A stretch of 64,000 nucleotides of DNA from Isoetes taiwanensis (taxonomy: Eukaryota > Streptophyta > Lycopodiopsida > Isoetales > Isoetaceae). This document shows positions 24,439 through 54,138 of this stretch, piece after piece. Location of the stretch: contig JAJEKV010000052.1 in the NCBI GenBank assembly GCA_021234155.1, positions 2,040,077 through 2,104,076 of the forward strand, read 5' to 3'. Numbering within the stretch: the first letter of the stretch is position 1; every line of letters starts with the position of its first letter. Both the position numbers and the translations under genes were made by a program. Below the pieces are notes generated by a model. The model searched no databases. It was not told the origin of the DNA and worked only from the letters and a program-made list of their open reading frames with translations.

Positions 24439-24443
24439 AAGGT
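24439..24443. repeat. Target-site duplication of the copia element (left copy), AAGGT
   Basis: AAGGT precedes the LTR at 24,444 and recurs at 29,367-29,371 directly after the second LTR. Confidence 0.93.
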
Positions 24444-24786
24444 TCTTAAAAATTATTGAGACTATAAATTGAATTCCGATTGAGTTACCTTTTTAAAACC
24501 CTTAATCCACAGTTCACACAACTTTCGCTATTCTTCTCCACCAGCCCAAGCATCGAACCCATCATTTGTGCCACCGTGCAACCTTCCAATCTGTCCACAT
24601 GTTCGTCTATGCAGCCCGCCCACATGCCAGTTCAGATCCAGCATAATACTCCTGCCACGTCCTGAGCTGCCGCTTCACAAAAGCCACGATGCACATGAAT
24701 ATCCAATTTTTTCTCTTTCTCTCATATGTTGGACCATATATGATCCCCATTACATATATTATGAACCTCAATTAAATAATCCAACA
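24444..24786 (-). repeat. 3' LTR of the copia element
   Basis: 343 bp. Plus strand runs from TCTTAAAAATTATTGAGAC to ATTAAATAATCCAACA. No difference from the other LTR was seen. Confidence 0.95.
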
Positions 24787-24847
24787 TCCCTCTTCAGAAT
24801 ATATGTGATGGATTAGCAGTCTTGTGTCCATATTAGACTTGTTATTG

Positions 24848-26075: not shown

Positions 26076-29002
26076 GTTCTAGATTTCATGGCGTTAGCAT
26101 ATGATAGCAACAATCTTATACTCTGCATCTTAACTATAGGTGAGAAAGTTTCCTGGAAATCAATACCCTGTTTTTGTGAAAACCCCTGTGCGACCAGTCT
26201 TGCTTTATATTTCTTAGATACTCCATCTGCACCTGTTTTAATCTTAAAAATCCACCTGTTACCTATAATGTTTTTACCTTTTGGTTTTGGCACTAATTCA
26301 TACGTGCTGGTACGTTTGAAAGAGTTGACCTCATCCATCATTGCATCTTTCCAGCACTCTGCATCCTTTGCTTTAACTGCCTTCTCATATGTATCAGGAA
26401 CATTTGGTTCCAAAATAGCCATTAGAGAAATTATACTATTCTCTTGTTCATTTTCTTTTTCCGCTATTCTTTTACTCCTTCCTGATTCCAATCTTCCATA
26501 TTGCGAGCTGTCCATACCATGTTCTGCTTGCAACCTTTCTGCTTCACTCCTTCTTTTTCTGACGACTTCTATTGGCTGCTCAGGATACTCTGCTACTTGA
26601 TCATGTGTATCATGATCTTGACTTTGTATTTCAGAAAAATCAGCTTTGATATCACTTATAACACCATCGTCTTCTATTATGTCTGAGTTTATTGTCTCTT
26701 CTTTACGCTTTGTTTGTAAAAATTTTCTCTCCCGTGCACTAATTCTGTCACAATATACTGTAGACTCATCAAATCGTACATCTCTGCTCACAACAATTTT
26801 GTTAGTTTCTGGAATAAATAGCCTGTACCCTTTCGACTCTTCATCATACCCAATCAAATAACCTTCAATTGCCCTGTCATCAAGTTTTTTCCTTTGTTCA
26901 GCATGAACATGTACATATGACAAGCAGCCAAAGACTTTGAACTTATCATAGTCCTGTGACCTGCCACTCCATACTTCATCTGGCACTTTTCCATCAAGAC
27001 TTGTTGTTGGTAATTTATTGTGAATATAAACAGCAGTCTTTAGAGCTTCATCCCATAATTTATTGGGCAGACACGTATGTTTTAACATAGCTCTTACAGA
27101 ATTCAGAATTGTTCTATTGAACCGCTCAGCCACTCCATTCTGCTGTGGAGTAAAACTGCATGTTAATTGTCTCCTAATTCCTCTTTCTTTACAAAAGTGT
27201 TTGAATTTTCTTGATAGGTACTCGCCTCCTCTATCAGACCTCAAACATTTCACCTTATGGCCTGTATCTCTTTCCACTTCAGATACAAACTTCTTGAAGG
27301 CATCCAGAGCCTCAGCTTTTCTACGCAGAAGATAGCATTTTGCTCTCCTGGTGTAGTCATCCACAAAAGACACATAATATCTTTTGCCAGACCTAGATTG
27401 CACATTCAAAGGACCACATAAGTCACTATGAATCAATTCCAAAACCTCCCGGGCTCTTTTGTTAGTACGTTTAGGAAATGGTAACCTGCTATGCTTTCCT
27501 AGCATACATCCCCTGCATATATGTTCTCCTTTATTTTTCTGTTTTTTTCCTTTTATCAGCCCATCTTCCATCATTCTTCTTATTTTATTGAGATTGGCAT
27601 GACCCAGCCTTTCATGCCAAAGTTCTGGCGATACCTGCACAACCATATTAATCTCACTAGCATTTGGCAAGAGCTCAAATAGACCAGAAACACGTCTTGC
27701 AAGAAACTTGAGTTTATTATTCTTGAACACTTTACACGTGGACTTATCAAACAACAACTGGTAGTCCATGTCTACCAGCTGTGCAACGGAAATCAGATTT
27801 CTCACAACTCCTTCAACACACAATACATTTTTCAGATTTACAGGTTCACCATTGAGGTCAAAAATCTCAAGCACTCCACTCTTATCCACCTTCTTCAGCC
27901 TTCCATCTCCTAGCTGCACACGTCCTATTTTGCTGGCACAAGTTTCTTTTAACAGCTTCATGTCTCCTATGACCGTGTGCTCGGCTCCACTATCTATAAG
28001 AAAAGAATTAGATTTAGTCCCTTTCTTATAAGCAACGTTTGCCATCACATCAATATTATTTACCTCATCTTCAGAGCTTAATCCCTGTTCTTGCTCTTCC
28101 AAATCACTCACGTTATATGCCGCTGCACGCCTTTCTTTGCCTCTAGGCACACTTCTCCCTCTTGCTTCTGCTCTACTGCCTGCACTTCTACCTCTACCTC
28201 TCCCTCTTCCTCTATTGATACCTTTTGGAGACGGGCATTCAGAGGCATAGTGTGTAAAACATGTATTTGACCTAGTTTCAAATTGCTTAAAGAGCGGACA
28301 ATTGTACTTAATGTGCCCCAACTGACCACATTTGTAGCACCTAATTTGCTGGCTTCTATCTTTCTCTGCAGCTCTTTCCTTCTTCATTATTAATATCTCT
28401 GATGTTTCTTCTTCCTCATCCAATATAATTTTCATCTGTTCAAGTTCTGTCCTCGCCATTCTTTCTGCTTCTTCACGAGATTTTGCAACATTTCTAATAA
28501 GCGTGGACAAATTTTCATGTGCTGCAAACATTCTAGAAATTGCATTGACTTGAGCTTCAGTTGATAATGGATTGCCTGCTGCGTCCAGATCTGCCATTAT
28601 AAGGTCAAATTTCTGAAAGAGATCAACAAGCTCAATCGTATCATTATGTCTGAGCTTCCTCAGCTCCTTCTCTAGTATATCTATCTGAGAGGAGGATTTA
28701 ACTTCATAAGTTTTCTCCATATAATCCCACATCTGCTTAGGATTCATCCCTCTCATCTTCAGCATGATACTTGGCCCTACTCTGCTTGAAATAATTATCT
28801 TGGCTTCACAAATTTTTGCATCCTTACTACCTGATGCTTCACCTTTATCTTTTTCTACTTTTACTTCTGATTTACTTTCTCCTGCTGAAGACGGTGGCTC
28901 TATTAACACATCTTTAACCTTCTGTTTCCATACCTGAAACCCAGCCCCTCCTTTATAAATCTCAATCTGACTTAACAAAGTTGCTCCAAAGCGAGTTGTC
29001 AT
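26057..29002 (-). CDS. Copia gag-protease-integrase-RT (first part) polyprotein
   Basis: The first ATG is at 29,002 ([18 protein letters not shown]), 21 nt inside the longer open frame whose upstream part overlaps the primer site. Domains by residue from this ATG: gag UBN2-like region 1-190; CCHC zinc knuckle [14 protein letters not shown] about 222-235; protease with [13 protein letters not shown] at about 335; GAG-pre-integrase with [10 protein letters not shown] and [14 protein letters not shown]; integrase core with [18 protein letters not shown] and [13 protein letters not shown] (the D, D, E residues); then RT start [20 protein letters not shown]. The frame ends early in RT after [11 protein letters not shown] by a frameshift; downstream codons are in other frames. 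About 980 codons are intact. Confidence 0.93.
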
Positions 29003-29023
29003 ATCTGATGGCTCTGATACCAA

Positions 29024-29366
29024 TCTTAAAAATTATTGAGACTATAAATTGAATTCCGATTGAGTTACCTTTTTAAAACCCTTAATCCACAGTTCACACA
29101 ACTTTCGCTATTCTTCTCCACCAGCCCAAGCATCGAACCCATCATTTGTGCCACCGTGCAACCTTCCAATCTGTCCACATGTTCGTCTATGCAGCCCGCC
29201 CACATGCCAGTTCAGATCCAGCATAATACTCCTGCCACGTCCTGAGCTGCCGCTTCACAAAAGCCACGATGCACATGAATATCCAATTTTTTCTCTTTCT
29301 CTCATATGTTGGACCATATATGATCCCCATTACATATATTATGAACCTCAATTAAATAATCCAACA
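29024..29366 (-). repeat. 5' LTR of the copia element
   Basis: 343 bp, identical by eye to 24,444-24,786. On the minus strand it is followed after one base by TGGTATCAGAGC (29,022-29,011). Confidence 0.95.
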
Positions 29367-30402
29367 AAGGTACCCTCGAACTTCTTCCACAAGCTGCTGC
29401 ATGTCGCTCAACATTTGCTGCGAAACTTCCACTTTTGACACGGGATTGTGCCAAGTGTCTGGAGTTAGGCATTGATAGCCGTAGTTGATCATGAACGGCG
29501 ACATTTGGGATGATTCCTGCTTGGTGCTATTGTATGCAAACTCCACCAAGTGAATAAATTCCTCCCACATACCTTGCTTGTTCCAGACATAGTTTCGGAG
29601 CATGTCCTCCAATATTCTGTTGATACGCTCCATTTGCCCATCCGTCTGTGGATGATAGGCCGTGCTCATGGATAGCTTCGTTCTAATCGTTGTGAAGAGA
29701 TCCTGCCAGAAGGCACTGATGAACTTCGGATCTCGGTCGGAGATAATTTCCCTTGCCATGCAATGGAGTCTGAAGATCTCTTTGGTGAAGAGCTTTGCCG
29801 TGTCCATAGCTGTGTCCGTGGTCCTGCAAGGCACAAAATGGGCCATCTTCGACAACTTGTCGACCACGACCATCAAGGCATCCTTACCTCTTCTTTGTCC
29901 TTGGCGGTCCTGTTATAAAGTCCATCTTTGACGACTTCCCACTTAGCGTTTGGCACCGCTAATGGTTCCAATGCCCCGAATTCGTTGTTACGCCTTTCGT
30001 TTCTTTGGCATAGCCGACACTCCTTGATGTGGCGAAGCTATACGCTTCTTCATTCCCGCCAATAGTAGCTACTACGCACTTTAACGTATGTCTTCATGAA
30101 TCTGGCGTGGCGTGCTATTGCTATTGGGCTGTTGTGGGTGTCGTGGAGGATCAACTTTCTTACTCCGGATGATTCCTGCACGCACAACTTGTTCTTGTGG
30201 TATAGGAGGTTACCTTCCTTCTTAAAATTTTGAAGGTTTCCCTCTCCTTATCCGTTCTCGCTTCCTTGCACAAGCTTGCCCATACTTCCTTGAAGTCCAC
30301 ATCCGTTGGCAAGGTTTCTTCTATCTTTTCGAAATCGTTGAAGAGCGTCGAGATTGCGTTGCGGTGCACCACCCCGGTTGTCGGGGGATGCCTTGAAAGC
30401 AC
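29367..30402 (-). pseudogene. Element A: integrase core, interrupted
   Basis: The minus strand at 29,876-29,371 reads VVVDKLSKMAHFVPCRTTDT, REIISDRDPKFIS, MSTAYHPQTDGQMERINRIL and WEEFIHLVEFAYNST, giving the first Asp (lost just upstream by frame change), second Asp (SDRD) and Glu (DGQMERIN) regions of a Ty3 integrase. The zinc-binding N-terminal region lies in 29,900-30,402 in broken frames. The text stops at VEEVRGYL, where the copia element has inserted, and resumes at 24,438. Confidence 0.85.
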
Positions 30403-32678
30403 ATCTCTGCTACCACATTAAGTTTCCGGGCTTGTAGACTATATCAAAGTCGTACTCCTCGAAAACTCCATCCACATGTGGTTCGCGTGAATACGTCTTG
30501 GAGGCTCGGTGATCGGTGTCGGTTGGAACTTCCTCCCTAAGAGGTAATGCCTCCAGATTCTCAGCATACGACAACCGCTAGCGGCTCTTGGTCGTCGCGT
30601 CGTATGCGTGTTTTTGGTCGTTCATCTTTCTTGAGTCGTACGCTATTACCCGCTCCTCTTGCATGAGCACCGCTTTTTGTGGCTATCTTGCTTGCGTCCG
30701 TCGCCACTAACTTGTCCTTTTCCGGGTCTGGCAGGGTTAAGACGGGGGCGGTTGTCAAAGCTTCCTTCAACAATTCAAATCCTGCTTGGGCTTTCTTGAG
30801 CCAATGGTCTGCCCAATTTTTCACTTTCTCCGCCTTTGTCAAGTCTGTCAGTGGGGCTGCTATCTTTGCGAAGTTCTTCACGAACTTTTTGTAATATCCT
30901 GCTAGGCCAAAGAAACTTCTGACCTCATGGACGTTCTTTGGTGCCGGCCATTGGATTACCGCTTCAATCTTGGCGGGGTCTGTCGAGATTCCTTCTGCTG
31001 AAATCACATGACCGAGGTATTCCACCTTCTCTGTTGCGAAGTGGCACTTCGACAACTTGGCATACAACTGATGCCTCCTTAACTTCTCGAGCACCTTTCT
31101 TACGTGATGTGCATGCTCTTCAATGGATTTGCTGTACACCAGAATATCGTCGAAGAATACTATCACAAAGGTGTCCAAGAATTCTCTGAAGATGTCGTTC
31201 ATGAGTCTCATGAACGTAGCTGGGGCGTTGGATAGCCCAAATGGCATTACGGTGAATTCGTAATCCCCATACCTGGTTCTGAAAGCCGTTTTGTGGATGT
31301 CCTCTTCCTTTATTCTGATCTGGTGATAACCTGACCTTAGGTCGATCTTGGAGAAGACCTTTGCCCCTTGGAGCTGATCCATCAAGTCGTCTGATCTGGG
31401 GAGTGCGTACTTGTTCTTGATGGTGTGCTTGTTCAATTGTCTGTAATCTATGCACATCCTCAAGCTTCCATCCTTCTTCCTGACAAAGAGGATGGGTGCC
31501 CCAAATGGTGAGACGCTAGGCCTGATGAAGCCTAAATCGAGCAATTCTTGTAACTGCTTATTTAGCTCCGTGAGTTCCTGTGTGGTCATTCTATATGGGG
31601 CCTTGCTTGTCGGCTTGGTCCCTGGTTCGAGTGCTATCTCACACTCTACTCCCCTGTAAGGAGGAAGCTGCTCGATCTCATCTGGAAAGAGATCGTGGAA
31701 CTCCGTGATCAAGTTGGCGATTTGCTTGGGCAACTTGCTGAGCACTTTGTCTTCTTTACTTCCCTCCGACTCGGGTTCCTCAACCTCGAGTTTGAAGATG
31801 TATGCTACCTGCTCGCTCTTTATAGACTTGAGCAGCTTCTTAACAGACATACACTGCATGATGGGGACAACTTCTTTACCTGTGATCTCAATGACTTTGC
31901 CGTCGGGCGTTGTGAGGGTCACCTTCCGCTTTCCACAATCAATTATGGCTCCTGCTGGCCCAAGGTACTCCATTCCTATTATGAGGTCGTACTTGCCAAT
32001 GCCCATTACTTCTGCTCCCATCGGGATGTTTATTCCCGGCAAGTCAATGTCGAAATTGATCATTTTTCCTGCCGTATGTCTTACTGCTCCGCTTGCCAAG
32101 ATTATGGGCCTTGGTTTCAATTTCAACATTTCAACCATTCTTGGGGATGCAAAGTTGTGGCTACTTCCGGAGTTTATCAGGACTATGAAAGACTTGGCCT
32201 TTGCCTTCCCTACTGTGGAGATTACCTTATACTGGGTCTCCGCATGTTCTGTATCTATAGCAGCGAAGATGTGGCACTCACCCTGAATGTAATCGCGTGC
32301 TGCCTCGCCGTCGTCATCTGACGGAGTATCCCATCCGCTCAACTCCGCTAGCGCTGAGCTCATAACAAATGGGCAGTTTGCCGTTCGGTGGCCCGGCTGG
32401 AAACATCTAAAGCAGAGCTGCTTCTCTATGCATTCCTGCCTTTTCTCCTTGGGCATTGCCTGTAAGAAGGACCGTACTGCTTTCGAGTAGTTGGAACCTT
32501 CTTGTTTGTCCTTGAAGGACACCTGCTTTCTTTCCTGCTGTTTTCCCTGGTTGCTATTGTATGAGGGACTTTGCTGGACTTGGGCTGGCTGCCCTAGGGC
32601 TGTAACTCCCTGTTGCTTTGCCTCTATCCTGGTAGTAAGGCTGCTTCGTGTGCCGCTTCGAGGCCCCGATCCTTGCAA
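30403..32678 (-). pseudogene. Element A: gag end, protease, RT and RNase H start
   Basis: The long minus frame 32,678-30,561 (705 codons) holds a CCHC knuckle [14 protein letters not shown] (residues 89-102), an aspartic protease whose active-site motif is INSGSSHNF (Asn169 in place of the catalytic Asp), and a full Ty3 [51 protein letters not shown], the FFDD box (508-511, usual form YxDD), and [20 protein letters not shown]. RNase H begins VATDASKIA and then shifts frame; its continuation is readable in another frame to about 30,450. Loss of the protease Asp and the frameshift make this copy inactive. Confidence 0.92.
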
Positions 32679-32679
32679 A

Positions 32680-33552
32680 CTAATTGCCTTGGATTCCGCC
32701 AGACACTGTTTTGGGGTCTATTGCGCTTACGAGTTTCCTGATTTCCTCGTTCAGCCCTTCTATGTAGCTTTCCACTGCGTGTTTCGCTCGGCCGGCACAT
32801 CTGACCTTAGTCTCATAAACTCTTGATTGTATACGCGACCGTCTTGTAGCCTTGCCAATCGTAGAACCTATGCAACATATTTGACTTGTGTTCTCGAGGA
32901 ACATAGTGGCACTTGAAGGCTTTTGAGAACTTCTTAAATCTGCACCGATCTCTGCTCAAGCCATGCGCCTTGGCATAGCCCTTCCACCAGATTCGTGCGG
33001 CTCCTTTCAAGTTGGCGGTTGCTACCCTGCCTTTGTCCTTGTCCTTCATGCCATAGGCATTGCCGTACTCACTCATTTCGTCCAGCCATGCCTCTGCTTC
33101 TAGTCCTGACCTGTTCTCCCCCGAGAATTGTTCGAGTTTCCGGGCCTTCCATACATTGCCCAGTGCCGAGTCTACCTTCTTCTGGTAATCCAGCGCCTTA
33201 GCTTCCCTTACCGCGGCCGTCTGCGGTCCGGCACTTCTTCCGCCTCTTTCTCGGGACTCGGTCAGAGACCAGAAGTCTGAGGTCGGAGGTCTCGTGGGGG
33301 ACCTCCTTCTTTACTCCTCTTCTTGTCTTTCCCCGACTTTCGGGGTGTCGTTTGTGGCCCGGATGATGCTTGTGCTGCTAGTAGAGCCTTAATCTAGTCC
33401 AGCTCCGTCCTCATTTGTGACATCTCCTCTTCTGGAGTCAGGGGACCGTATTGTCCGAACAGGTTCCTTGGGATATGTTGTCTGTCGGGTGTCCTTTCAT
33501 CTTCGTCGAGCCTCCTATTTTGCTCGACCGTTCGGTGTTCCCTATCTGCATG
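32680..33552 (-). pseudogene. Element A: gag
   Basis: Gag probably starts at the ATG near 33,552 (MHADREHRTVEQNRRLDEDE). A coiled-coil-like segment PEEEMSQMRTELD precedes a TAG at 33,395-33,397, and another in-frame stop follows. The capsid core is readable at 33,076-32,813: ANLKGAARIWWKGYAKAHG, a retrotransposon gag signature, and KHAVESYIEGLNEEIRKLVS at 32,840-32,700. Two frame changes separate these from the zinc knuckle in the next entry. Confidence 0.75.
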
Positions 33553-33724: not shown

Positions 33725-34590
33725 CTATTCTTGAAATCGCCGGTATGATGGATTAGCCTCTAGGAACTTCTTCACTTGGGCTGTTCCTACTAAATGACCT
33801 AAGTTCCTAAGGACATTGATTGAAGATCCACCCTGCAAAGCTCTCGCCAAATCTTCTATCCTGCGCTCGGAGGTATAGGCTGCGGTCACTGCCAGTCTTC
33901 CCTGCCGTCTGTAAGGTATGGCGAAGTAAAAAATATCGAGTGCTACCGCTCTCTTCACGAGGGATGGCATACTTCGGTGTTGGGAGCTAGCCCGGCGTGC
34001 CGACAAAAGCACGAGGCGCCAATTAGCATCGATACTCCTTCCTGCCCACAGGGGGTGAATTTGCGGTGAATTTTGCTATTCTTCCGTCCATCGGCGGGGA
34101 AGGTAATACTACAACGACACATGGTTGTGTGGCCAGTCTTAAGCCTCCTCGGCCTCCCAGCTGCATTGTCTGGCGGCATAGTCATGGACCTCCTCCAGTG
34201 TGGTGAGCTCCACGTAGTCTCGGTTGTTCTTGAAGCTCTCGGTCGAACTTCGCCTCTTAAGCTCTCGGGGAGGTGTTGTCCGAAACTTGCCGTTAAGATG
34301 TTAGAGGTCTTGTGGCGGATCCCCATCTGTTCTGTAAGCAAGGAACTCCTCCTCGTCGGTAGTTGCAGCGCCTCCATATCTGCACGATGTTTATGCGTGG
34401 CTTGAATATCCAGGTCGACTCTCCCGATGTAAGTGTCGGCTTCCCTTACTTGGAGTGGGGCGTCGGAAGTTCCTCGGACGATGAAGTCGTCCAGTGCGAT
34501 TCTCGGGAGTTGGTGCAGCAGCTCGTCCGGGTCGATACTCTCTTTCCGCACCGGGAGGTTTTGGATGTAAGCAGGAGCAAATACTCTTAG
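33725..34590 (-). pseudogene. Element A: ORF3, unknown, frameshifted
   Basis: Minus strand 34,551-33,955 begins MRKESIDPDELLHQLPRIAL and contains KTSNILTASFGQHLPESLRG. After this, coherent coding seems to move to another frame (RDYVELTTLEEVHDYAARQC, about 34,215-34,155). The last part (34,012-33,725) has ALDIFYFAIPYRRQGRLAV and NVLRNLGHLVGTAQVKKFLE before the stop. The middle part has a gag-like flavour (a short helical 'TLEEV' segment), but I do not recognise the family. It lies directly upstream of gag in the same orientation. It may be an extra gag-like module or a captured host gene. Confidence 0.45.
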
Positions 34591-34668
34591 CCCTCGGCGA
34601 TGATGGGGGCTAGGCTTGTGATGCCTAGCCCAAGGGGTGGCGCGATCACGAGAGTTTGCGGCTTCTTT

Positions 34669-35280
34669 TCAATTCCTGCAACTCTTGTTACGCTGCTTGC
34701 CTCTCTTCCGGAGGTCGAGCTCGACGTAGTCCTCATCCTCTTCTTCTGACTCCTCGTCTTCTTCTTTTCCTTCTTGCTCCTGTTCGTACTGCGAAAGGAG
34801 CTGTTGTGCTGTTGCTGTGGCTAATGGGTCCACGTCCATGGGGGGAATGGAGGTTTCTCCCATGGGGTTCTCGGCACAGTGGGTAAGAAAAATTGCTACG
34901 GCAACGTTGAAAGAGAAATACTTGGTCCTGTTGACAGTCAGGACCATTGGCTCGGGCATGCACTGGGCCTTGTTTGTGAGATACTTGGCAATGTTTGGAA
35001 CATCGCCTAAGGCTGCTTGAAGGGATTGCCTAGGAACAAAGTAGCCTATGCAAGGTGGGAGCTGCACTAAAGATGGCCCTACCCTAGCTTGGAATTCAGA
35101 CAGGACTCTGCTATATGCTGGGGTTGCGTGCAAGGTTGCTTGGACATCTATCTCTTTCCGGAAGACCCGGAAAATCTCATCGATGTCGGCCTCGGCAGCA
35201 TGAGCGCTGGCGCCGTACCATCGCCCCAAATCGAGGGTTGCCATGAGTCTAGCGAGGAAGAGACTAGCAAACGGATGCAA
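34669..35280 (-). CDS. Element A: ORF2, unknown protein with acidic tail
   Basis: An open frame of 203 codons; two starts are possible, 35,280 (MHPFASLFLARL) and 35,244 (MATLDLGRWYGA). The body is mixed alpha/hydrophobic (LVQLPPCIGYFVPRQSLQAA, KYFSFNVAVAIFLTHC). The C-terminus is strongly acidic (about 25 residues, EQEGKEEDEESEEEDEDY) followed by a basic end RKRGKQRNK. Acidic tails are common in histone-binding proteins, but nothing else supports that role. Two 65-nt hairpin repeats lie 280-540 nt upstream. I do not recognise a family. Confidence 0.5.
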   Translation of the reverse strand: MHPFASLFLARLMATLDLGRWYGASAHAAEADIDEIFRVFRKEIDVQATLHATPAYSRVLSEFQARVGPSLVQLPPCIGYFVPRQSLQAALGDVPNIAKYLTNKAQCMPEPMVLTVNRTKYFSFNVAVAIFLTHCAENPMGETSIPPMDVDPLATATAQQLLSQYEQEQEGKEEDEESEEEDEDYVELDLRKRGKQRNKSCRN

Positions 35281-35556
35281 GAGCCTCGGGGAGCTGGAAA
35301 ATCGGCTAAGGGAGCAGGAGCAAACTCGTAGGGTGCTACGTAAGGAATGAGGGACTTATTTATAGAAAAGGGGGAAACCCTAATTTTTGGGTGACTTGGA
35401 AAATTCTTGGGGTTGGGCAATTCTAGCCTATATTGAGGTCTAAATGGGAATTGAAAGTCTAATTTAAGGGTTTGAGCATGACTGGGTTACCTAAAGATCC
35501 TAACATAACAAGTTGGAGATCATTTGGACAAGTTATGGTGAAGAAATGGTAGGAGG

Positions 35557-35756: not shown

Positions 35757-35821
35757 TCTCACAGGTAGCGCCTCGTTCAAAAACTAAACTTTAGTTTCTT
35801 TACCAGGCGCGACGTGTGAGA
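35757..35821. repeat. 65-nt quasi-palindrome, copy 2
   Basis: This has the same outer arms as copy 1. The centre AAACTAAACTTTAGTTT is a near-perfect palindrome. It lies between the histone-like ORF1 and ORF2. Confidence 0.9.
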
Positions 35822-35941
35822 CATCGCACTTTTTGGTCTAGAAATGTGCTATTTTACTAAAACAAAAGCTACTACTTGCTAACTTGCCCTAATTAAACAA
35901 GTTTAGACACATAAAACACTCAAAATTGATTTATATTACAA

Positions 35942-35971: not shown

Positions 35972-37721
35972 TTAAGGGCGTTCTCCCTTGATGCGACTAG
36001 CAAGATGCATGTCTTGCCTCATAAGTGTTACTCGCTTCGCATGAACAGTGCAAGCCGTCGAGTCTTCAAAATGTTGCACTATTCTCTGCTCCGCCGCTTC
36101 CTGCAATGCCAGCAGCATCTCATCCGTGACCCTCATGTCGGTCTTGAAGTCCTGCATCACTTCTATGACTAGACGGGCAAAGGGGGCACGGGGAATTAGG
36201 AGGCCGTAGCTGCGCTGAAAGTGTTTGATCTCCCTCAGTGCTCTTTTTTCGGTCTCCTTCCTGGTGGGCTTCTTCTTGGCTGGCCTCTTAGGGGCCTTGG
36301 GCTTTGGTGGTGGCGGCCTTAATGTCTGGCTCTTCGTTGGATGTCCGCCCTCGATGGTCCGTACCCTGTTCTCCTGATAGTAGGAGTTGTAAGCCTCCCA
36401 CTTCTTCATGTACTCCTGATGGGTAAAAGCATGTTAGGGTGTCCCTTAAAAAGTATTATTTAGTGACTAAAAAGGTACCTAAAAAGGTAGCCAGGAATGG
36501 GTACTGGGTACCTGTATAATATCTCAATATAAGGTATGTTTTAGAACTTTTTATATATATATTGGTCTCCGATAGCATTATCTTTACCTTAACTTTGAAT
36601 ATTACCATGTCCTTGACTTTTATTTTGGATTTTTGTATTAGTTTTAATGAAAAGAAAAATGAGAAAGTACCCAGTTCAGAAGTACCTAGTGTATGTACTT
36701 TTGCAGGTTCCAAAAGTGGTACACCCTAACATGCTTTTACCCTGATGTTCCATCTTCCTTTCATATATCTTGACGGGGTCCATGACATAGGACTCTCGGG
36801 CAGGTCGTGGTTGTTTCTTCCTGTCCCAAGTCGGATACCTAGGGGCTTCTCAGACTTGGTCCCCGCTGCCCCCGCCGGCGCTATCCGCCAGTACTACACC
36901 CCTTTCGTCGCTTCAGGGGTTTAGAAGAGCTTCCACCTTCGGTGTTGGGGTTGAAGTCTTCATCTTCAGAGTCGTCAGAGGCGGGCGGGGGCTGGTTAGC
37001 TGACCGTTCGTTAATGACGATCTTGGGGTTGGGCTTCTTAGTTGGCGGAACATCCTTGAGCTTCCTTGGGCCCACCACAAACTTCCCCTTCTTCTTCTTC
37101 AGTTCCTCTGCCACTTTCTTCTCCTCCTCTTCTCTCTTCCTCTTCTTTTCTTCCTTCTTCCTTTCTCGGCGTCTCTCTTTGGCCGTGCCAGCGATAAGCC
37201 CACAGGTCTTCTTCTTCCTCCATGCGGCTCAAGCCTCGGCTCCATTGTTCCTCTCGCTCCTCGGCCTCCTTCTCGCGGATCCAGGCTTCGAGTTGCTCTT
37301 CAATGGTCGGTTCTAGAGTCGGCAGCCTCTGCTCCTCACGGGCCTTGGTTCTCCTTTCTCTCTGTGCTGCCTCCTCTTCCTCTTCGAGCAGCTCTGTTCC
37401 TGCATCCGAGGGTTCGTCCTCTTCCCGGTCGATCTGCTGGTCCATCTCCTCGTTCTGCTCTCCTCTCTGCTGGGATCCTTCTCTATTGTGCTCATCCGAA
37501 GGTTCTCCCTCGCTCGAAGAAGATTGACCGTTGGTGTTAAGGAGGCGCCCCGGGCATCTTGCCGAATCATCTTTGGGATCAAGGGCGCCGGGTCGATTCC
37601 TGGTCACGCTTTCCGGCAGTCTGTTTGGTTCGGGCCATATTTGACAGATCGACGATCGGATGTCGGGCGCCAAAGATCGCCTTAGGGAGCGGGAGCAGAT
37701 TTCTAAGTCGGGAACGTACAA
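35972..37721 (-). pseudogene. Element A: ORF1, charged protein with C-terminal histone H3 domain
   Basis: The first part (37,721-37,038) is an acidic, Glu/Arg-rich coiled-coil-like region (EPTIEEQLEAWIREKEAEER). After a frame change near 37,205 it continues as a basic segment (KKKKGKFVVGPRKLKDVPPT) to a TAG at 36,881; a shifted frame carries on through RYPTWDRKKQPRPARESYVM to the MITE. After the MITE, 36,409-35,972 runs MKKWEAYNSYYQENR, a Pro/Lys linker, and then a gap-free histone H3 fold of about 89 residues: ALREIKHFQRSYGLLIPRAP, LVIEVMQDFKTDMRV, LALQEAAEQRIV, HFEDSTACTVHAKRVTLMRQ, HLASRIKGERP, stop. About 50 of 89 positions match canonical H3, including all helices and the QDFKTD and HAKRVT segments. 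The H3 N-terminal tail (ARTKQTARK) is absent. Some residues (HFQ, LLIP, TLMR) are more CENH3-like, but the longer CENH3 loop 1 is absent. Breaks: about three frame changes, one TGA, and the MITE. Confidence 0.9.
36422..36741. mobile_element. MITE, 320 bp, inserted in the histone-like ORF
   Basis: Perfect 21-bp terminal inverted repeats, GGTAAAAGCATGTTAGGGTG(T) and its complement, bound the element. It is AT-rich and non-coding. The flanking six bases CTGATG are duplicated (36,416-36,421 and 36,742-36,747). With one CTGATG copy and the MITE set aside, the reading frame of ORF1 is continuous through the site, so the insertion is later than the ORF. Confidence 0.92.
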
Positions 37722-37849
37722 ATGAGGGGGGTCTACATCTATTTATAGCTTGGGCAATTTTAGGTCAAAATCTAAGTTGCTCTATTTAACATGCCAAGGC
37801 ACCTATTTACTTAAAACATACACTTATTTCAGAGTTTTCTAATTATTGG

Positions 37850-37914
37850 TTTCACAGGTAGCGCCCTGTTCAAAAACTAGAGTTTAGTTTTTAGACCAGG
37901 CGCTACGTGTGAGA
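37850..37914. repeat. 65-nt quasi-palindrome, copy 3
   Basis: TTTCACAGGTAGCGCCCTGT pairs with AGGCGCTACGTGTGAGA at the other end, with AACTAGAGTTTAGTTTTT in the centre. It lies about 130 nt upstream of the ORF1 start on the minus strand. Confidence 0.9.
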
Positions 37915-38038
37915 TCTTATACATTTTTAAGTAATTAAGTGATTTAAGCATACTATTCTAACTAATTCTTACCTTGGAACTGGCCTTACCATATCACTTT
38001 TCTCAAATTCATCAAGTTTTAAGGTGTTCTTATTCGAT

Positions 38039-38104
38039 GTTCACAGGTGTAGCCCCGCTCAAAAACTAAAGTTCGGGCTCTTTGACCAGCGCCGACGCGG
38101 TGAG
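38039..38104. repeat. 65-nt quasi-palindrome, copy 4 (diverged)
   Basis: TTCACAGGTGTAGCCCCGCT, then AAAAACTAAAG, then GACCAGCGCCGACGCGGTGA. It is the most diverged of the four, 189 bp from copy 3, about 200 nt after the primer-binding site. Confidence 0.8.
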
Positions 38105-38299
38105 ACCACCTTGCCTGAGGAGGTTTTGGCTCATTCTTTTTAGTCTTATCATGTTCCAATTCACTTAACTGTTACTAGCTTAGCATAAACTACAAAAATG
38201 AGAAAAAAAAAAATCCCACTTTTCGAGGTTTGAGGATCCTATCAAGTTAGTACTACTGGGAGCATGGTCAGTGCTTTGCTCTTGGTCTCCAAGAACATT

Positions 38300-38311
38300 G
38301 CTCTGATACCA
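38300..38311 (-). promoter_or_regulatory. Primer-binding site of element A (iMet type)
   Basis: On the minus strand TGGTATCAGAGC follows the LTR end (...CGTCACA, then G). This is the usual initiator tRNA-Met primer site of plant Ty3 and Ty1 elements. Confidence 0.9.
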
Positions 38312-38312
38312 C

Positions 38313-38502
38313 TGTGACGTCCCTTACTCATATACGATGCTCGCACCGTATACAAACAGGAGTTCATCCCCCATACCAGCTCCATACTGATATAGGGGTA
38401 ACCGTCTAAAATCCACAGTGGGAAGAATGAAGGGGTCATTTTACCCCGTCTCCCTCAAGGCCTACCTAGCTGTGGAAGCGTAAACATACACGTCAGTAAC
38501 AT
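38313..38502 (-). repeat. 5' LTR of element A, inner part
   Basis: It matches 21,568-21,773 of the 3' LTR (TGTGACGTCCC...GTCAGTAACAT) with a deletion of about 20 bp, then is cut by element B at 38,503. The other part of the LTR is 57,070-58,309. Confidence 0.92.
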
Positions 38503-39095
38503 TGTTAGTCCTGTGCCTCCTGGTTCAGGACTATTCATGCATACGACGGACCAGGTCAAGCTTAAGGATCCATGACAGCAACGGGTCGATCTTCCAAAGC
38601 CCAAATAGAAGACTAAGCAGACCACCACGCCAAAGCCAAAGGCCTGCGTCGGAAGAACAGGCGCCGCTCAGACAAGTGATGGCCCGCCATCGCCCGCGTC
38701 AGCGTCAGCGTGATTCGAGGCACTTCAAGAGGCACCGCCAACATTCCTCCAAATCGCCTCCTTCCGTAAGTCGGCACCGATCGGTCGATAGTGTCTATAT
38801 TGGGCCAAAGGCCATTGTACTATATATATGAGTAGAGCTAGCATATGATGGCTAGATGAGTTTTGAGTCTTGTCTCTCTTCAGTCTTCTCTCGATTGCGA
38901 GAGCTCATGTATGTTCATCATTGATATCAAGGAAGCTTATCATTTTCCTCTCACTGTTCTCTCTTGTTCTGTTTTCTTCTTCTTGTTCTTTTCTTGCAAA
39001 TCCCGCGTGACATAGTCCCCCGGATTCTCCTGTTAGCTCCAAGGGTCCTCACAGAGGGCTGTCTTGCAGGAGTTCCCGAACCCAGACCCCAAACA
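38503..39095 (+). repeat. LTR 1 of element B (593 bp)
   Basis: It starts TGTTAGTCCTGTGCC and ends CCCCAAACA. A TATATATATGAG promoter-like box lies at about 38,820-38,831. The end is set by the primer site that follows. The left flank of B is A's LTR. No target duplication can be checked because the right end of the B block is deleted. Confidence 0.88.
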
Positions 39096-39096
39096 C

Positions 39097-39112
39097 TGTC
39101 GCCGCTGCCGGG
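39097..39112 (+). promoter_or_regulatory. Primer-binding site of element B (tRNA-Asp type)
   Basis: TGTCGCCGCTGCCGGG resembles the TGGCGCCGTTGCCGGGG site complementary to tRNA-Asp used by Athila/Tat elements. Copy 2 has TGCCGCCGCCGG. The mismatches may be errors or decay. Confidence 0.65.
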
Positions 39113-39188
39113 TCTGATTAGTTTTTCCTTTCTTCTGTCGCCATGTCTGTCCGAAACTTCACGCTGCAGAACTTCTTTCCCTGCATAA

Positions 39189-41420
39189 ATGCCTCGCTTT
39201 GAGCGCCATCATCGAAGGGAAGTTGCTTCGTGACATGTATGGATCTGCGTGTGACATTGAGGGAGGCCACATTCGGCCTAGGGCTCACCGGCGCCACCCA
39301 CCCTCGCGGTCATGTCTCGTCCAAATTCTCCTCCTCAAACGTGCAAACATTGCTCCGCGGCCCGGGCCTCCTCATCACTATCGGAGCCCTATCCGCTCCA
39401 CCTCCAACCTTACTTTCATACCCCGTAACATGCCTTCATCCATCACTCTTTCCGCCATACCGCCTTCACAACCATCATCTCCCTACGGGGACAGGGATAT
39501 CCACATGTCTCTTTAGCTCCTCCCCAGTGAATTTCCCCTTCCCTACCTTTCCCACCGCTTCTTCCCTGCTTACACCTTACGCACTCTCAAAACCAATGAT
39601 CGTGCACCTCCAAGCATTCTCCACCTCGCCCACCCTTAAGCTGTGGTCTTTCCGCACCATACCACCTCCAACTCCACCTCAATATCCTCACTATCATGTT
39701 CCCGTCCAGCCCAAGCACTTTTTTACCTCTACCTTTCGACCTTTAAGCCGACTTATCCCACCTTTGGCAACACGAAAGGCAAACCTTTAGACCAAAGTGC
39801 TCAGGCCCACATGGAGGAATTTGAGGCTCGGCTGTCCTGAATGGTCATGCGCAACCTCAACTGAAATTCCACATCTTTTCCACCACATTGCGGGCTCCCC
39901 TCATCAATGGCTCATGTCCAACAAAAGCCACTGAAACAAGATTGGTCCGAAATGAAATCGCTTTTCTTTCACTATGGGACCACCTGATGATGATCAACTT
40001 CATCTCAAGCAACGCAATGACCTTCAACAAGAGCCCACTTGAAGTCCCGCCTCGGATTTTGCGCATCCGCCTTCACATTTTGCTCAAGAAACTCAAGGAG
40101 TACCCCACACGTAGCCGTATCTTTGGTCCGGTTTCTCCAAGGACTTCCTCCAAATATCGACTCATGACTCAATACCTGGCGCCAAGACTTTGGAGCAAAG
40201 CTATCGATCTTGTCAATCACTCGGCCAATGTTTCCTCCCGTGGTGTGGCTCTTCGTAAGCTCCCTTTCATTCCACCCATCATGGTTCCCCGTGATCGCTG
40301 CTCAACCTCAACACGCCAATCCGGCGCAATGATCTGGTGCCATATTCAGAAATATCAAGGCCACTTGGCTAATGAGTGCAACTCCACCAATGGCCCGCCT
40401 CATTGTAAACGATGCAACATGTAATCATGCCACCTAAGAGTGCACTCGCGACTCATCCTACACCTTTCCGCAACAAGATGGTTTATCAAGTGCAAACAAC
40501 ACCTCGCCACTAATCGCACTATCGCTAGCCACCACCGCAGCGCAACCCAATCAACTCTATCAGCAACAGAGCCACAACGGGACCCAACACACGCCCTCCT
40601 TTTGATCCTTCAAAAGCTCGTTTATCACCGCCAAGAATGGGGTCATACCACCACGGCGTGTCCTCAACTCCCACAAGTTCAAAAGTGCGCTTTCCTCGCA
40701 CCAATCGTACCACATCATCACCCGCCACGGCTTACCAACTCTAGATTGCTAATGGCAAACAAGGCCCGGCCCCGTTTCTTCTAAGCCACCTCGCGCGCCT
40801 CCAGCCATCACGCTTATCAACCAGCTCATGCCAATCAACCTCGATGGATCAACAAGCACAGAAGAAATTTTTCGTGCTCTTAATCCTCCAGTCCAGCCAT
40901 CAAATTGGGTTGGTTTGGTCTCACGCCGACCGGCCACGCCCCCCCTAACCATTATTCCTAATGGCACGCAACCCCGCCTTTGCAACGACGCAATTCCTCA
41001 TGCGTAAGACAAAAAAGGTCCATTTTGCACCTGACTTGAGAAACTCATGCCGAATGTCATGCCTAAAGTTCGCCAAAGCATTTTGAACCTCATGCAAGCC
41101 GCCAAGGCCGCGACGCTGGCTAATGTCCATGCCACCACTAGAGCTCAACAAAGACAAGACGCACTTCACGCCTCAACCTCCACGCCTCGCACATATCCCA
41201 ATATCGCTGGGAGGTTGACCTACTCAAAGAAGTTGCTGCTTCTTTACCACGCACTCCCCGCACCCTGGGGTCCAAATTGATCCTTTTTCTCATGTGCCTC
41301 GAACTCCAAGAGGAGCTAGCCAAAATCAAAATTCCTTTAAGCTTGGCCACAATTTTGAAACTCGGTCCCGCTTCTCAAGGACCGCTACTCCCCCGAACTG
41401 CTTTGGTTGGGGCTGTTGCT
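39189..41420 (+). pseudogene. Element B copy 1: gag, frameshifted
   Basis: ATG at 39,189 opens MPRFERHHRREVA and soon hits a stop. Further pieces are in all three plus frames: Pro/Ser-rich N-terminus, then a capsid-like part (NFISSNAMTFNKSPLEV), then two Cys/His clusters near 40,340-40,450 (YQGHLANECNSTNGPPHCKR), interpretable as zinc knuckles. The same pieces appear in copy 2 with different breaks. Confidence 0.6.
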
Positions 41421-43330
41421 ACCTCTACTCCCACTGGCATGCCACGGTGGCAATCAACAAGTCAATCATGTTCAAATTGACGAGGTAGCGCTGTCAATCT
41501 CATCACGGATAAACTCCAAAACAAATGGGCATCAAACAACTCTATCGTGGCCCCATATGACATCAAATTGGCCAATGGCCATATCACGAGACCTCAAGGC
41601 GCCAATCTTCCGCACATCAATATTGGTGATCTCCGATTCCCTTGGAATTTGGTGTTTGAAGGCCGGAGAAGATCCGTGTGATTATGAAATGTTGGTCGGC
41701 GCACCTTTTCTCCGCCAGCCAAGAGTATCCATTACCGGGCCACGATCGCTTAGTCATCACCGATGGTCACTTCAATGCCACCATGGACTTGGAAACAGAA
41801 AAATCATTTCCGGGCGTCGACAATGCCGAACCCTCTCTCCGGCACATCGCATTCCGGGACGCCGTAATATTTATCGCTCAGCTCCACCGCGCGAAGGCCG
41901 CCTGGCCATCCTACCCCAATATGCCGATCCTTGGGGAGAAATGACTCTTGATCGGACCAGTCCGGGTCGCTTTTGCTTGACCCTTACCTAGCTCCTTGCA
42001 ATCGGAATCCAACGCGTTGATCACTTTTCGACGCCAACCTCCCCGCAAGCCCTCGTCAGATGTACACGCCGGCCATGAAGCAACCTCTCGCTTGAGGAAA
42101 CTCAAGAACCTCTTTTTTCACCACGCAGAGTGCCACGCGATCCCGTTATGCTTCAACCTCCTCGCCATATTGTCCGGGACATGGAAGTTATCCCCATATT
42201 CGCACTCAAGTCGATTGTGGACGAGGGCAACAATCACCGTCCGACTTTGCCGCCAATCTTCCGACACCCTATCGTAATGGTCTGCCACGCCTTCAAAAAG
42301 TTCAAACACATTTTGCCCTGAGCTACAAAGATCTTCGTGGGATCAACAAAACCTTGGGGAACTCACCATTCCTACCAAGTCCGATGCACGCCAGCCTAGC
42401 AACGACCAGCATTCGCTCAACCCCACTTACCGCGGATCGGCCAAGGCGAAATTGACAAACTCCTTGCCGCAGTTTGATCTATGAGGTCAAACATTCTCGA
42501 GTGGGTGAGCCCCATCGCCATTGCACTCAAACACAATGGTAAGATCCACGCTTATGGGACTAACCGAAAACTCAATCGCCACGAGCGCGATCATTTTCCA
42601 CTTTCCTTTACGCACTGTGTTCGAAGAGGTTGCCGGACATGAGATGTACTCCTTCATGGATGGTTTTTCCGCTACAATCGATCTCAATCAAAGAATCCGA
42701 TCAACTCAAGACTACCTTCACCACCCCGCGGCACTTTTGCCTACAAGGTGGTTCCTTTTGATTATCAAACTCTCCATCCACGCTTTCAACGTATCATGCT
42801 CTCCGCTTTTCATGATTTTATGAAGGAAAATCCCTTCTTGCAAATTTTTCAAGATGACTTCTCCGCCACAGCCCATGGTCTGACCATTTGATAAATTGGA
42901 ACTCGCCTTTTCGAAATGTGATGAGTCCCAAGATTAGTCTCAATCCCGAAATGCACCTTTTTAAGGCCACTTCGTGTTCTCGTTGGGACATGTGGTCAAG
43001 AAAGCGTGTATCACCACGATCCCCGCCAAAATCAGCCGGTGCTCAAGGCTCAAGGACCAGCCAATATCAAGGAAACACGCTTTTTCTTGGGTAAGGTCAA
43101 TTATTACTCCACCTTCATTCCCCGACTCAAGCAGCCCATTGCAGATCCCATTCATAAACTCATCGGTGATGAATCCACCGGGCTTGGAATTCCCAAAGGA
43201 TGTCGCTTCCAACAGCTTGAAGCTCTTGCTTACTCAGCCCCTGCTCTTGTTCCTCCTCAATGGGACAAGCCCTTTCATGTCCATGTCGATGTCTCGCCTT
43301 TTGCTATTAGAGTCGTTTCTTTCTCAAGAA
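41421..43330 (+). pseudogene. Element B copy 1: protease and RT, frameshifted
   Basis: The protease motif is at about 41,465 (VQID..GSAVNLI; one base is missing relative to copy 2). RT pieces include DHFPLPFTHCVR, EVAGHEMYSFMDGF, FQDDFSA (42,847-42,867), and ETRFFLGKVNYYSTFIPRLK. RNase H begins FHVHVDVSPFAI and is cut at 43,330 by a LINE. Confidence 0.72.
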
Positions 43331-44700
43331 TATTTATTTATTTATTTATTTATTTATTTATGTCTAATGCTCTCTAAGGGCCAAGAGAGGCCATGGAGCA
43401 CAATATCAAATCAATTACAAATTCAGCAATAGTGATCGATGAGTATCTCATCACCTCAGCAGATATAGTCCTAATTCTATAGGAGCCATACCTAACAATG
43501 AATAGTAATCAGATATGTATATCAAACTTCTCCTCGATGTGTGTATACCCCGGCATTGTATGAACGTATGATGCTCGCCTTCTACGCTGCCGAGTCACAA
43601 ATTTTGCACAGCCTTGCTTCCCTAGGTGTTTTTGCCCATCCGCTAACCTCTATTTCCAAATTATGCGAAATGGGTACGATTTGGCTATGACCTCGTTTAA
43701 AGAACTTAGGGATATCCTAATTCAAATAGTTCTCGCTTTTATACTCTTCCATGTGATTGATATTTGCCTTGTACTACATCATCCGGCCCCTCGATCCGCC
43801 CATAAATGGTCAATCGCACATTTCTCGAAAGCAATATCCTTGCATCTCGATTTGTTATCGGGCTTGGCATCTGTTATGCCCCATTTTCCCCATGCATGAA
43901 GATTTTTCAGCCACCCTTGATCTGAACTTACCATAGCCCGGTAGGATCTAAGGCGATCTAACATTGCTCCTTCAAATTGTTAAGAAAATTTATAGATTGG
44001 AAAAGAGCTTCTATCTCTAAAGGAAACATACCGGATTTTGCAAGTATAATGGCGTAAGGGATTTGGGCTCTGGCTCCAAGCTCCTCACGCAGGAACGATT
44101 TTTGTACTGCTTCAATCTGATTCCATAATCTCGCATGAATTTCTGATCCCCAAATAGGTGCCCGTAGAGCAATACCATTTGTACCAAAGTTTTGAAGAAA
44201 AGTTTCTTGAGTCTCCAACTTGTCAGTGAGGCCTTGCTGCATTTTGTAAGCATGCTGTACAATGCCATCTTTCCTCCTGTGGCTCGGCATTTAATACATT
44301 CCTTCCAACTGTAGTTAGAAGATATGTCTACTCCAAGGTATTTGTAACAAATAACCTGCCTCCAAAGATATGTTCCCTCGATATGTAAAATTCGCCTTTC
44401 CCCGGTACCAAAGACCATGATCTTTGTTTTGCTACATTTACCATCATTTTCTTTTCATTACAAAAAGTTTTCTAGGTCGCATAAGTGATCTTGCAAGATC
44501 TACTTTTTGTCGGGCTACTAGTACCACATCATCGGCATACAAGCCAGTGAATCGGATTATGTGCGCCCTAATTTGGTGCCCGCTAGAGATCGAAGCTTTT
44601 ATCCGGTCTTCCCGCCATCGATGAAAATCCCAAACAAAGTTGGAGACAACGGGCAGCCTTTGACGCATTCCCATATGATGCGCATTAATCGACAAACCAA
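43331..44700 (-). mobile_element. 5'-truncated LINE inside element B copy 1
   Basis: On the minus strand the LINE RT part (about 44,695-44,500: LPVVSNFVWDFHRW, IIRFTGLYADDVVLVA, the YADD box) is followed by CYKYLGVDISSNYSWKECIK, a zinc-finger-like C-terminus in broken frames, and a (TAAA)n tail at plus 43,331-43,361, about 7 units. It lies in B's RNase H gene at the same site as in copy 2. Confidence 0.8.
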
Positions 44701-46390
44701 ACCGCTACGCCAGCCGAAACTCAATTCCACCGAACGCAACTACTCGCCACGCAGCGAAGCCTTGGGTTTAATTTTCGGGCCCAACGCCTCGCCACTATCT
44801 TTTAAGCCCGATCAAATTCTTTGTTGACCACCAGTGCACTTTTTTATTTGATCAACAAATCCACGCCCACGGGCCGCATTGCTCGTTGTCCTCCTTCGCA
44901 AGAATTTGCACCTTTTGAAATTGTTCACAAGGCCGGGTAAATCTCATGTTGTCCCGATTATCTTTCACCCATCCACACAGATGATCCCTCCATCGAGTCT
45001 CGACGCGCCTTTCCTGACGCCAACTCTTTTTGGTCACGGCAACACCTCATTGGTTTCATGACTTTCGCCAGTATCTCCTCACAGGTGCTCTTCCCCCCCA
45101 GAGGACGCCACGCCTTCCAAAATTAGCAACAATCCCGGCCGACATCGGGCTCCTCCGCGAGGTCCGTGACTACACCATGGTTGCAGCCATCTTTACAAAA
45201 AAGGGTAAGGATACCATCCTTCGACGCCGTGTTCTCCCTCATGAGGTTCTAGATATTGTTCGAGAAGCCCATGAAGGGCTCCTGGTGGTGGTCATTTTCA
45301 TGGTGACACCACGGCACGCAAAAATCCTTCTTGCTGGTTATTTTTGGTCCACGCTCTTCAAAGACGCCACGCCCATGCCCGCTGCGGTGATGCTTGCTTG
45401 CGTGGGGGACGGCCCACGCCCGCGGACGCTCTTCCCTTGACGGGCCGCCACGCCACTTCCCTTCAAAGAAATGGGGCATGGATTTTGTGGGACCCATCGA
45501 TCCTCTGCGCACACACCCGCGTTCGCTACATTCTCCCGTTCTCACCGACCACGCTACCAAATGGGCGGAAGCTTGCGCGACTTCCGCATAACACCGCGGC
45601 AAGCACGTACCTAAGGTTATCTATCAACAAATCATCACGCGATTCGGCCGCCCCACCTGAGTTGGGTCGCTGATCGTGGTGTCCACTTTATCAATCATAC
45701 CATCAAGGAGTCGACGGATTATCTCCCCGATACAACATCACAAGAGCACACCTTACTATCCTCAAGGGAATGGTTTGGCGTAAAGCACCAACAAAACTCG
45801 GGTCACAATTTCAAGAAAATTTGTGACGCCGCAAGACCGACCGGCAAACCAAGCTTCCTATCGTTTTTTTGGGCTTACAATACTTGTTTCAAAATAGCTA
45901 CGGTCACACTTTTCAAATTGGTTTATGGTCAAGAAGCTCTCATGCCTTTTGAGTACATTCTCCCCCCACTCTCCGCTTTCAACCGGCACGCCCATAATCC
46001 GCCACGACTCAAAGAAAGGGTTTATCAATTGGAACAGCTTGGATGAACTTAGAAGGGATGCTTATATTCGTGTTCTTCATGGACAACAAGCTTGCAAAAA
46101 TCTTTACATGACAAACGGTCAAGACAAAAACATTCAACGGGAGATTTGGTTCTTCTTTATGATTCTCTGCGACAAAAATTTTCCTGTAAACTTAAGTTTC
46201 GCTTGGCTTGACCTTATCAAATTGTTCAAGTGGTTCAATTCCACCGCTTTCCAACCGGGTTGAAGTTAGATGGCACTCCATTACCTACATCGGGTTAATG
46301 GCTTCCGGCCAAAACATTTCATCCCACGTAAAAGCAACAATCAACAAATAGATGCGCTTCAAGACACAACCACAACCGAAAAGTAACTAA
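44701..46390 (+). pseudogene. Element B copy 1: RNase H end and integrase, frameshifted
   Basis: After the LINE the RNase H resumes with RQPKLNSTERNYSPRSEALG, then STPTGRIARC and a KAGKSHVVPIIF-type segment. The integrase has RRVLPHEVLDIVREAHEGLL, WGMDFVGPIDPLRTHPRS (first Asp), then broken versions of the second Asp and Glu regions, and the tail FEYILPPLSAFNRH. Many 1-2 bp differences from copy 2 break the frame. Confidence 0.75.
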
Positions 46391-49200: not shown

Positions 49201-49215
49201 TTTTGGTGGGGGAGG
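49201..49215 (+). promoter_or_regulatory. Polypurine tract of element B
   Basis: TTTTGGTGGGGGAGG directly precedes TGTTAG at 49,216, so the LTR there is also the 3' LTR of copy 1. Confidence 0.85.
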
Positions 49216-49821: not shown

Positions 49822-49919
49822 CCTGCCGCCGCCGGTCTGATTAGTTTTTCCTTTCTTTTCTCGCCGCCATGTCCCGTCCGAAACTTCACGCCGTAAGAAC
49901 TTCTTTTCCCGCATACCGC

Positions 49920-54065: not shown

Positions 54066-54071
54066 GAATAT

Positions 54072-54138
<67 letters not shown>

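Follow-up and report, generated by a model that had tools for sequence, protein, structure and literature searches.

The window, a 64,000-nucleotide stretch of the Isoetes taiwanensis genome, contains a minus-strand LTR element (21568-58309), denoted element A, that is flanked by the target-site duplication (TSD) ATAAG on both sides (21563-21567 and 58310-58314). As a sequence-only reading of this DNA had proposed, element A is a Ty3/gypsy chromovirus. It has LTRs running from TG to CA with a short TSD, a tRNA-type primer-binding site (PBS), the domain order protease (PR), reverse transcriptase (RT), RNase H (RH) and integrase (INT), and a chromodomain. The same reading had taken both the LTRs and the target duplication to be intact. 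This is true of the duplication, but the right (5') LTR is interrupted by a nested region of 18.6 kb (38503-57069) holding two 88%-identical copies of ~7.8 kb each (38503-46285 and 49216-57069). By eye, ~70 bp of LTR are gone at the split site. The LTR divergence of the window copy, calculated by LTR piece, was 0.089 and 0.027. A histone H3 fold lies between PBS and gag in the orientation of the element, as had been described, and a further gene, ORF2, is located between H3 and gag. The features are as follows.

21568..23064, minus strand: 3' LTR of element A (TGTGACG...GTCACA on the plus strand), from the repeat pair, with TSD ATAAG at 21563-21567
to about 23950, minus strand: chromodomain, after one in-frame stop (Chromo PF00385, E 1.3e-10, stop read as X)
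24052..24492, minus strand: integrase C-terminus (SH3_Tf2-1), from a domain match
24444..29366, minus strand: nested copia element, young, with identical 343-bp LTRs (repeat pair), within the integrase of element A
29352..29912, minus strand: integrase core of element A (rve, E 1.1e-6, 29.3 bits, under the curated cut-off of 32.6)
30561..32717, minus strand: CCHC motif (by eye), protease (RVP_2), RT (RVT_1, E 2.3e-40) and start of RNase H (RT_RNaseH_2)
32813..33310, minus strand: gag of element A, partial open frame (Retrotrans_gag, E 2.4e-4, 21.7 bits, under the curated cut-off of 24.1)
33725..35244, minus strand: ORF2, open to 34669 and broken beyond
35357..35364, minus strand: motif TATAAATA, 120 bp 5' of the ORF2 ATG
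35555-35625 and 35755-35825, minus strand: two ~70-nt palindromes ~200 bp apart, before ORF2 (palindrome search)
35972..36433, minus strand: H3 fold, C-terminal part of ORF1 (Pfam, solved chains, AlphaFold2/Foldseek)
35972..37638, minus strand: whole ORF1, broken (three-frame reading; open relatives in other loci)
36421..36742, no strand assigned: MITE-like insert of 322 bp with 25-nt terminal inverted repeats (TIRs), splitting ORF1 (inverted-repeat search)
37740..37747, minus strand: motif TATAAATA, 109 bp 5' of the ORF1 ATG, also found upstream in all 12 fetched type A loci (see below)
37848..38108, minus strand: second palindrome pair (about 37848-37917 and 38041-38106), before ORF1 (palindrome search)
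38300..38311, minus strand: PBS TGGTATCAGAGC, adjoining the 5' LTR, which we take to be of the initiator-Met tRNA type
38313..58309, minus strand: 5' LTR of element A in two pieces (38313-38502 and 57070-58309), with TSD ATAAG at 58310-58314

ORF1 and ORF2 share their upstream layout, a pair of ~70-nt palindromes ~200 bp apart followed by TATAAATA. A DNA transposon as the carrier of this 5-kb module was rejected, as no bounding TIR pair was detected within 33.0-38.3 kb. Element A likewise does not present the hAT transposase, TIRs and 8-bp TSD of the fungal hAT elements that carry H3; it has LTRs, RT and a 5-bp TSD. Elsewhere in the window, a tRNA-Gly (CCC) gene is located at 11136-11206 on the minus strand.

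ORF1 and ORF2 in the window copy

The open frame at 36433-35972 (minus strand) matched the Pfam Histone profile, a search that had been proposed as a check, with 98.5 bits and an E value of 4.3e-28 (cut-off 26.4). It also matched solved H3 chains, from E 4.6e-29, and its core identity to H3 was ~54% across 88-90 aligned columns in many Foldseek rows. Given these scores and this identity, a chance match is excluded, and the earlier estimate by eye of about 50 identical residues in 89 was right. The AlphaFold2 model of the fold (mean pLDDT 67.4) has the helix order of H3, and its best Foldseek matches were nucleosomal H3 (E 2.1e-5); by Pfam, solved chains and Foldseek, the region is an H3 histone fold. 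When the window H3 was used to search a protein database, 495 proteins were retrieved, and the 8 examined of the 120 listed were ordinary H3 or CENH3. A viral protein model library gave no match to it at E ≤ 0.001.

The gene start had been placed at position 36409, which turned out to be an internal Met. Reading all three minus frames, we located the real start at an ATG at 37638 in a different frame, opening MARTKQTAGKRD, an almost canonical H3 start (MARTKQTAGK). From this start, ORF1 continues through a highly charged linker in shifting frames and the MITE-like insert to the H3 fold. The window H3 fold thus makes up the C-terminal end of a longer ORF1, broken in this copy, in which frameshifts and the insert part the start from the core. 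A protein-database search for relatives of the long ORF1 gave 162 candidates, none at E ≤ 0.001, although the query was rich in X and the null is weak.

Open ORF2 frames occurred in many copies of the family, with lengths of 500-545 aa and often of 460-545 aa. In a protein-database search, none of 2,847 candidates was accepted as a relative of ORF2, and comparisons with viral contigs, Pfam, NCBIfam and solved structures gave no match. Judged by these searches, ORF2 is an orphan protein encoded beside H3. An origin of ORF2 as a paralogue of the N-terminal part (N-part) of ORF1 was tried with hhalign, with a negative result. In one LTR-paired copy (L011:2957-9419), ORF2 is seemingly missing and gag-pol directly follows ORF1.

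Copies and cassette types in the genome

We searched the I. taiwanensis assembly (1,658,258,908 bases in 1,110 contigs) for histone matches. Among the 150 scored of 8,705 first-look candidates, the first 15 spanned almost the full profile and appear canonical, and the seven printed loci (L001-L007) are canonical H3. The remaining 135 matched only from profile positions 4-25 on, many of them in frames 350-494 aa long. When the window H3 served as the query, all 150 scored of 10,920 candidates were 78-100% identical to it, the window included. On the same strand, ORF2 was found 0.93-1.22 kb downstream in at least 56 of the best 150 type A H3 matches, and RT 4.57-5.03 kb downstream in at least 22 of the best 150 H3 matches, with the window included in both counts. 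By chance, 0.54 and 0.47 such pairings, respectively, would be expected within 20 kb. The H3, ORF2 and RT lists hold best-scoring matches, and the RT partners were drawn from 129 listed RT matches. The recurring H3-ORF2 and H3-RT spacings rule out a one-off insertion of a host H3 gene.

From the H3 matches, 36 loci were fetched (20 as L009-L028, 12 as L029-L040 and four as L052-L055). All 36 contain an open H3 fold, although most were selected because they had long open frames or ranked highest by profile score, a choice that biases openness and dN/dS. Copies bounded by LTRs were found among them. L011 has an LTR pair with TSD CAATC and an LTR divergence of 0.030, and L017 has one with TSD GTGGC and a divergence of 0.0225; the pair of L028 is covered in part, with 4 of 5 TSD bases and a divergence of 0.027. 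In L011, PR-RT-RNaseH-INT is complete across two frames, with a chromodomain (PF00385, E 6.3e-8). The exact 12-mer TGGTATCAGAGC was detected as the PBS in 13 of 20 type I-III loci and 9 of 12 type A loci.

As a reverse check, slices of 1.2 kb upstream of eight RT matches off the H3 list, out of 20 first requested, were inspected, and four of the eight contained H3. One of the others (L042) holds an LTR and PBS leader, so that H3 may lie outside the slice, and three hold nothing of element A. Since only half of these slices held H3, its presence is not claimed for every copy. The proposed H3 gene of the element is therefore upheld at the level of the family, in several diverged cassette types, with the reservation that some copies may lack the gene. 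Full-length copies devoid of H3 had been named as the sign of a one-off insertion; as far as the check was run, the fixed spacing, the LTR-bounded copies and the selection described below speak otherwise. The H3-like fold is a family trait in many copies of a high-copy chromovirus lineage.

The fetched loci fall into five cassette types, distinguished by the start of ORF1.

type I, 12 loci: start MPRFKLT... or close
type II, 7 loci: start MEEVKQV... or close
type III, four loci (L025, L052, L053 and L055): start MAN[TI]KSAPDP...
type IV, one locus (L054): start MARTKGTKS...
type A, 12 loci and the window: start MARTKQTARK in most

The type A start is exactly MARTKQTARK in 7 of 12 loci, has one change in three and two changes in L038, and is lost in L032; ARTKQTARK with at most two changes is thereby present in 11 of 12. 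Among the tabulated A starts, K4 is kept in 9 of 9 and K9 in 8 of 9. This start lies ~300 residues from the fold in type A, and an ARTKQT start is missing in types I and II. By eye, the K27 segment of the tail is shortened or replaced in all types. The motif TATAAATA lies 108-119 bp from the ATG in the nine A loci measured. At up to four errors, at least one palindrome was found in 12 of 12 A loci and two palindromes in 9 of 12. Since types A and IV both begin with MARTK, ORF1 may have descended from an H3 gene whose tail was opened by an insertion. Palindrome pairs with a spacing of ~190-200 bp recur 5' of ORF1 in the A copies L029-L040. In L027 (1676-2216, in ORF1 orientation), a PBS, a palindrome pair and a TATA box in type A spacing precede a type I ORF1; by this arrangement, L027 is apparently a recombinant or nested copy. 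Two such palindromes also lie close to the upstream end of L019 (138-672).

The identity of the RT proteins was up to 99% (mean 86%) between types I and II, and type I shared a mean of 82% with the window. Between the same two types, 81% of the fold is shared, compared with 33% of the ORF1 N-part. At the DNA level, three I-II pairs (one without LTR) were ~80-89% identical over LTR and gag-pol, and the ORF1-ORF2 stretch aligned in the fold only. We read this pattern as ORF1-ORF2 cassettes that were probably swapped on a common backbone, although it would also be accounted for if ORF1 and ORF2 evolved much faster. Among L017, L023, L024 and L011, LTR and gag-pol are related, with RT proteins up to 99% identical, whereas the ORF1 N-parts and ORF2 are very different. 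The RT tree (13 rows) contained no well-supported fork.

Purifying selection on the H3 fold

We calculated dN/dS by the Nei-Gojobori method as mean dN over mean dS, dropping pairs with saturated dS (56 of 66 pairs were used for the type I N-part and 40 of 45 for the A fold). L021 was left out of type II, and L030, where start and fold do not share a frame, and L039 were left out of type A. The ratios for the H3 fold were 0.040 in type I (12 copies), 0.022 in type II (6) and 0.059 in type A (10), while those for the rest of ORF1 were 0.126, 0.133 and 0.219, respectively. The ratio for host H3 was 0.010 (7 genes). A comparison of dN/dS across copies had been suggested on the strength of the window, and with values of 0.02-0.06, under those of the rest of ORF1, it reveals strong purifying selection on the H3 fold. 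Picking open copies lowers such ratios, but we do not think that this explains a dS of 0.5-0.7 with a dN of 0.01-0.04. Between the element folds and host H3, pS was ~0.89 and pN was 0.10-0.11 in types I-III and 0.32 in type A (L040 left out). Because synonymous sites are saturated against host H3, the gene is old, and the low dN/dS together with the saturated pS and low pN indicates that the ORF has long been kept as a protein.

The conservation of single residues differed between the types. All 20 type I-III copies examined keep R49, R69, R72, R83, C110, H113, K115, R116, T118, D123, L126 and R129, and R63 is kept in 19 of 20, with C in the other. We take the kept residues to be DNA-contact and four-helix-bundle positions of H3. 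Many of these residues are also kept in the 11 rows of type A, where a small deletion puts L040 out of register. The departures are P63, R or C at position 56 (no K56), A109 (no L109), mostly Q122, and R129 in 7 of 11. With P63, without K56 and L109, mostly without K122 and with R129 in only part of the rows, the entry of type A into nucleosomes is less sure.

Possible roles of the element-encoded H3

H3 is the protein that bears the host marks by which transposons are silenced. From the anatomy and the selection, we infer a mechanism in which ORF1 would be a large H3 variant with an N-terminal module, a charged linker and a C-terminal H3 fold. The protein would pair with host H4 and enter nucleosomes, in line with the examined DNA-contact and four-helix-bundle residues, which types I-III keep, and such nucleosomes could mark or open chromatin on element DNA. 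The usual silencing marks would probably not be in their usual place, since types I and II have no ARTKQT, the A start is far from the fold and the K27 segment is altered; this may help new copies to escape silencing. We give roughly even chances to the view that the element-encoded H3 variant both assembles with the H4 of the host and changes the chromatin of the element's own DNA. A wider version, which we advance tentatively and find somewhat doubtful, is that the lineage runs its own histone system. Here, a single pol backbone would bear diverged ORF1-ORF2 cassettes, perhaps swappable, that each supply an H3 variant with a tail insert, these variants would build element-specific nucleosomes with host H4, and the element would write its own chromatin state and not only read that of the host. 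If the mechanism is right, an H3 kept under strong selection by a retroelement lineage takes the arms race into the nucleosome itself. Diverged natural H3 variants would reveal the parts of H3 that are needed by an element and those that it drops, and it becomes testable whether transposon-built chromatin can evade marking by the host. The retention of H3 by selection suggests that these elements take part in building the chromatin normally used by hosts to silence them.

Strong selection fits roles in packaging, integration or as a chaperone as well, and the tether, packaging, CENH3 and decoy alternatives taken up next are mutually compatible. One is that the ORF1 N-part holds the integration complex, with the H3 fold joining host nucleosomes or H3-H4 chaperones and so steering insertion towards particular chromatin. 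The assembly residues kept in types I-III agree with this, and variable N-parts with a constant fold are what would be expected of an adaptor. The chromodomain of element A is also relevant here. It had been taken to read histone marks, a view that lacks support, since by eye only one of the three positions that we presume to form its aromatic cage (the middle aromatic) is kept, and a different contact with chromatin might therefore be required. ORF1 has its own frame and is not fused to integrase, however, and we consider such steering of insertion unlikely.

Large DNA viruses use histones for packaging, and ORF1, a basic histone fold with charged linkers and the first gene after the PBS, might coat element RNA or cDNA, with or without H4, in the particle or at nuclear entry. 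Types I-III keep the four-helix bundle and DNA contacts more exactly than a generic coat needs, however, which leaves this role improbable.

We consider it about as improbable that the type A fold came from CENH3 rather than ordinary H3 and acts at centromeres. In the fold tree, types I, II and III fell among ordinary H3 as a single clade (100/95). The clade of type A (100/100), on a long branch of 0.66, joined two gymnosperm CENH3 (97/90), with which it has LLIP and PFARLV in common. Given the length of this branch, the grouping is likely due to long-branch attraction. The window H3 keeps QDFKTD. It does not have the extra loop-1 residue of the two gymnosperm CENH3, for which reason an ordinary CENH3 was rejected. 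In a search for the host CENH3 (150 scored of 8,350 candidates), CENH3 was not separable from the H3 copies. Type A may go back to a second capture or to a CENH3 source, or may be a branch that evolved fast.

The protein could also titrate H3 chaperones or host H3-modifying enzymes, with the near-canonical start of type A mimicking the H3 tail towards readers and writers of K4 and K9. The kept ARTKQTARK, K4 and K9 are consistent with such a decoy, but types I and II keep the fold without that start, and we regard this role as quite improbable. A captured host H3 gene without function, spread by amplification as in the fungal hAT transposons that multiplied captured H3 in RIP-inactivated copies (PMC6710886), is very improbable, because the dN/dS of the fold largely refutes a pseudogene passenger and a pS near saturation stands beside a low pN in types I-III.

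Comparison with known systems

Among the papers listed by text searches of PubMed Central (CC0, CC BY and CC BY-SA), we recognised none on an LTR retrotransposon that carries H3. Large DNA viruses and bracoviruses encode core histones; the lineage of element A resembles them as a viral genome with a core histone and differs in that those are DNA viruses. In Ogre, an extra ORF sits before gag. Ogre/Tat/Athila (OTA) elements share with element A an extra ORF outside gag-pol; unlike it, they are non-chromoviruses, and to our knowledge they have no H3 fold. REXdb describes most OTA elements as carrying eORFs (PMC6317226).

Captured H3 genes have been described in hAT DNA transposons of Pseudocercospora fijiensis and relatives, in hundreds of copies (PMC6710886). 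Both cases represent a transposon that amplifies a host H3 gene. As far as that account goes, however, the fungal elements are DNA transposons with H3 mostly truncated and RIP-inactivated, whereas the lineage of element A is a retrotransposon with open, selected multi-domain ORFs. A closer parallel in kind of element is found in the 25-kb Gypsy elements of Phalaenopsis, which encode an AlkB m6A demethylase (PMC9289625). They too belong to a plant Gypsy lineage whose extra ORF encodes a host-like regulatory domain, although the protein is an RNA demethylase there and a core histone here. The accompanying screen of 121 angiosperm genomes, which does not include lycophytes, names no histone domain in text that names only part of its 15 domains (PMC9289625).

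Compared with the plant chromovirus clades defined in REXdb (PMC6317226), element A has the same TG..CA LTRs, 5-bp TSD, tRNA PBS, PR-RT-RH-INT order and C-terminal chromodomain. It differs from them by a pair of additional genes located between PBS and gag, with an H3 fold at the end of the first. Among these clades, Tcn1, of moss and club-moss species, is described there as self-priming, with most members devoid of a tRNA PBS (PMC6317226); judged on the PBS alone, the lineage of element A is unlike most Tcn1. A figure legend in the Tcn1 paper names an additional ORF of unknown function (PMC2864245).
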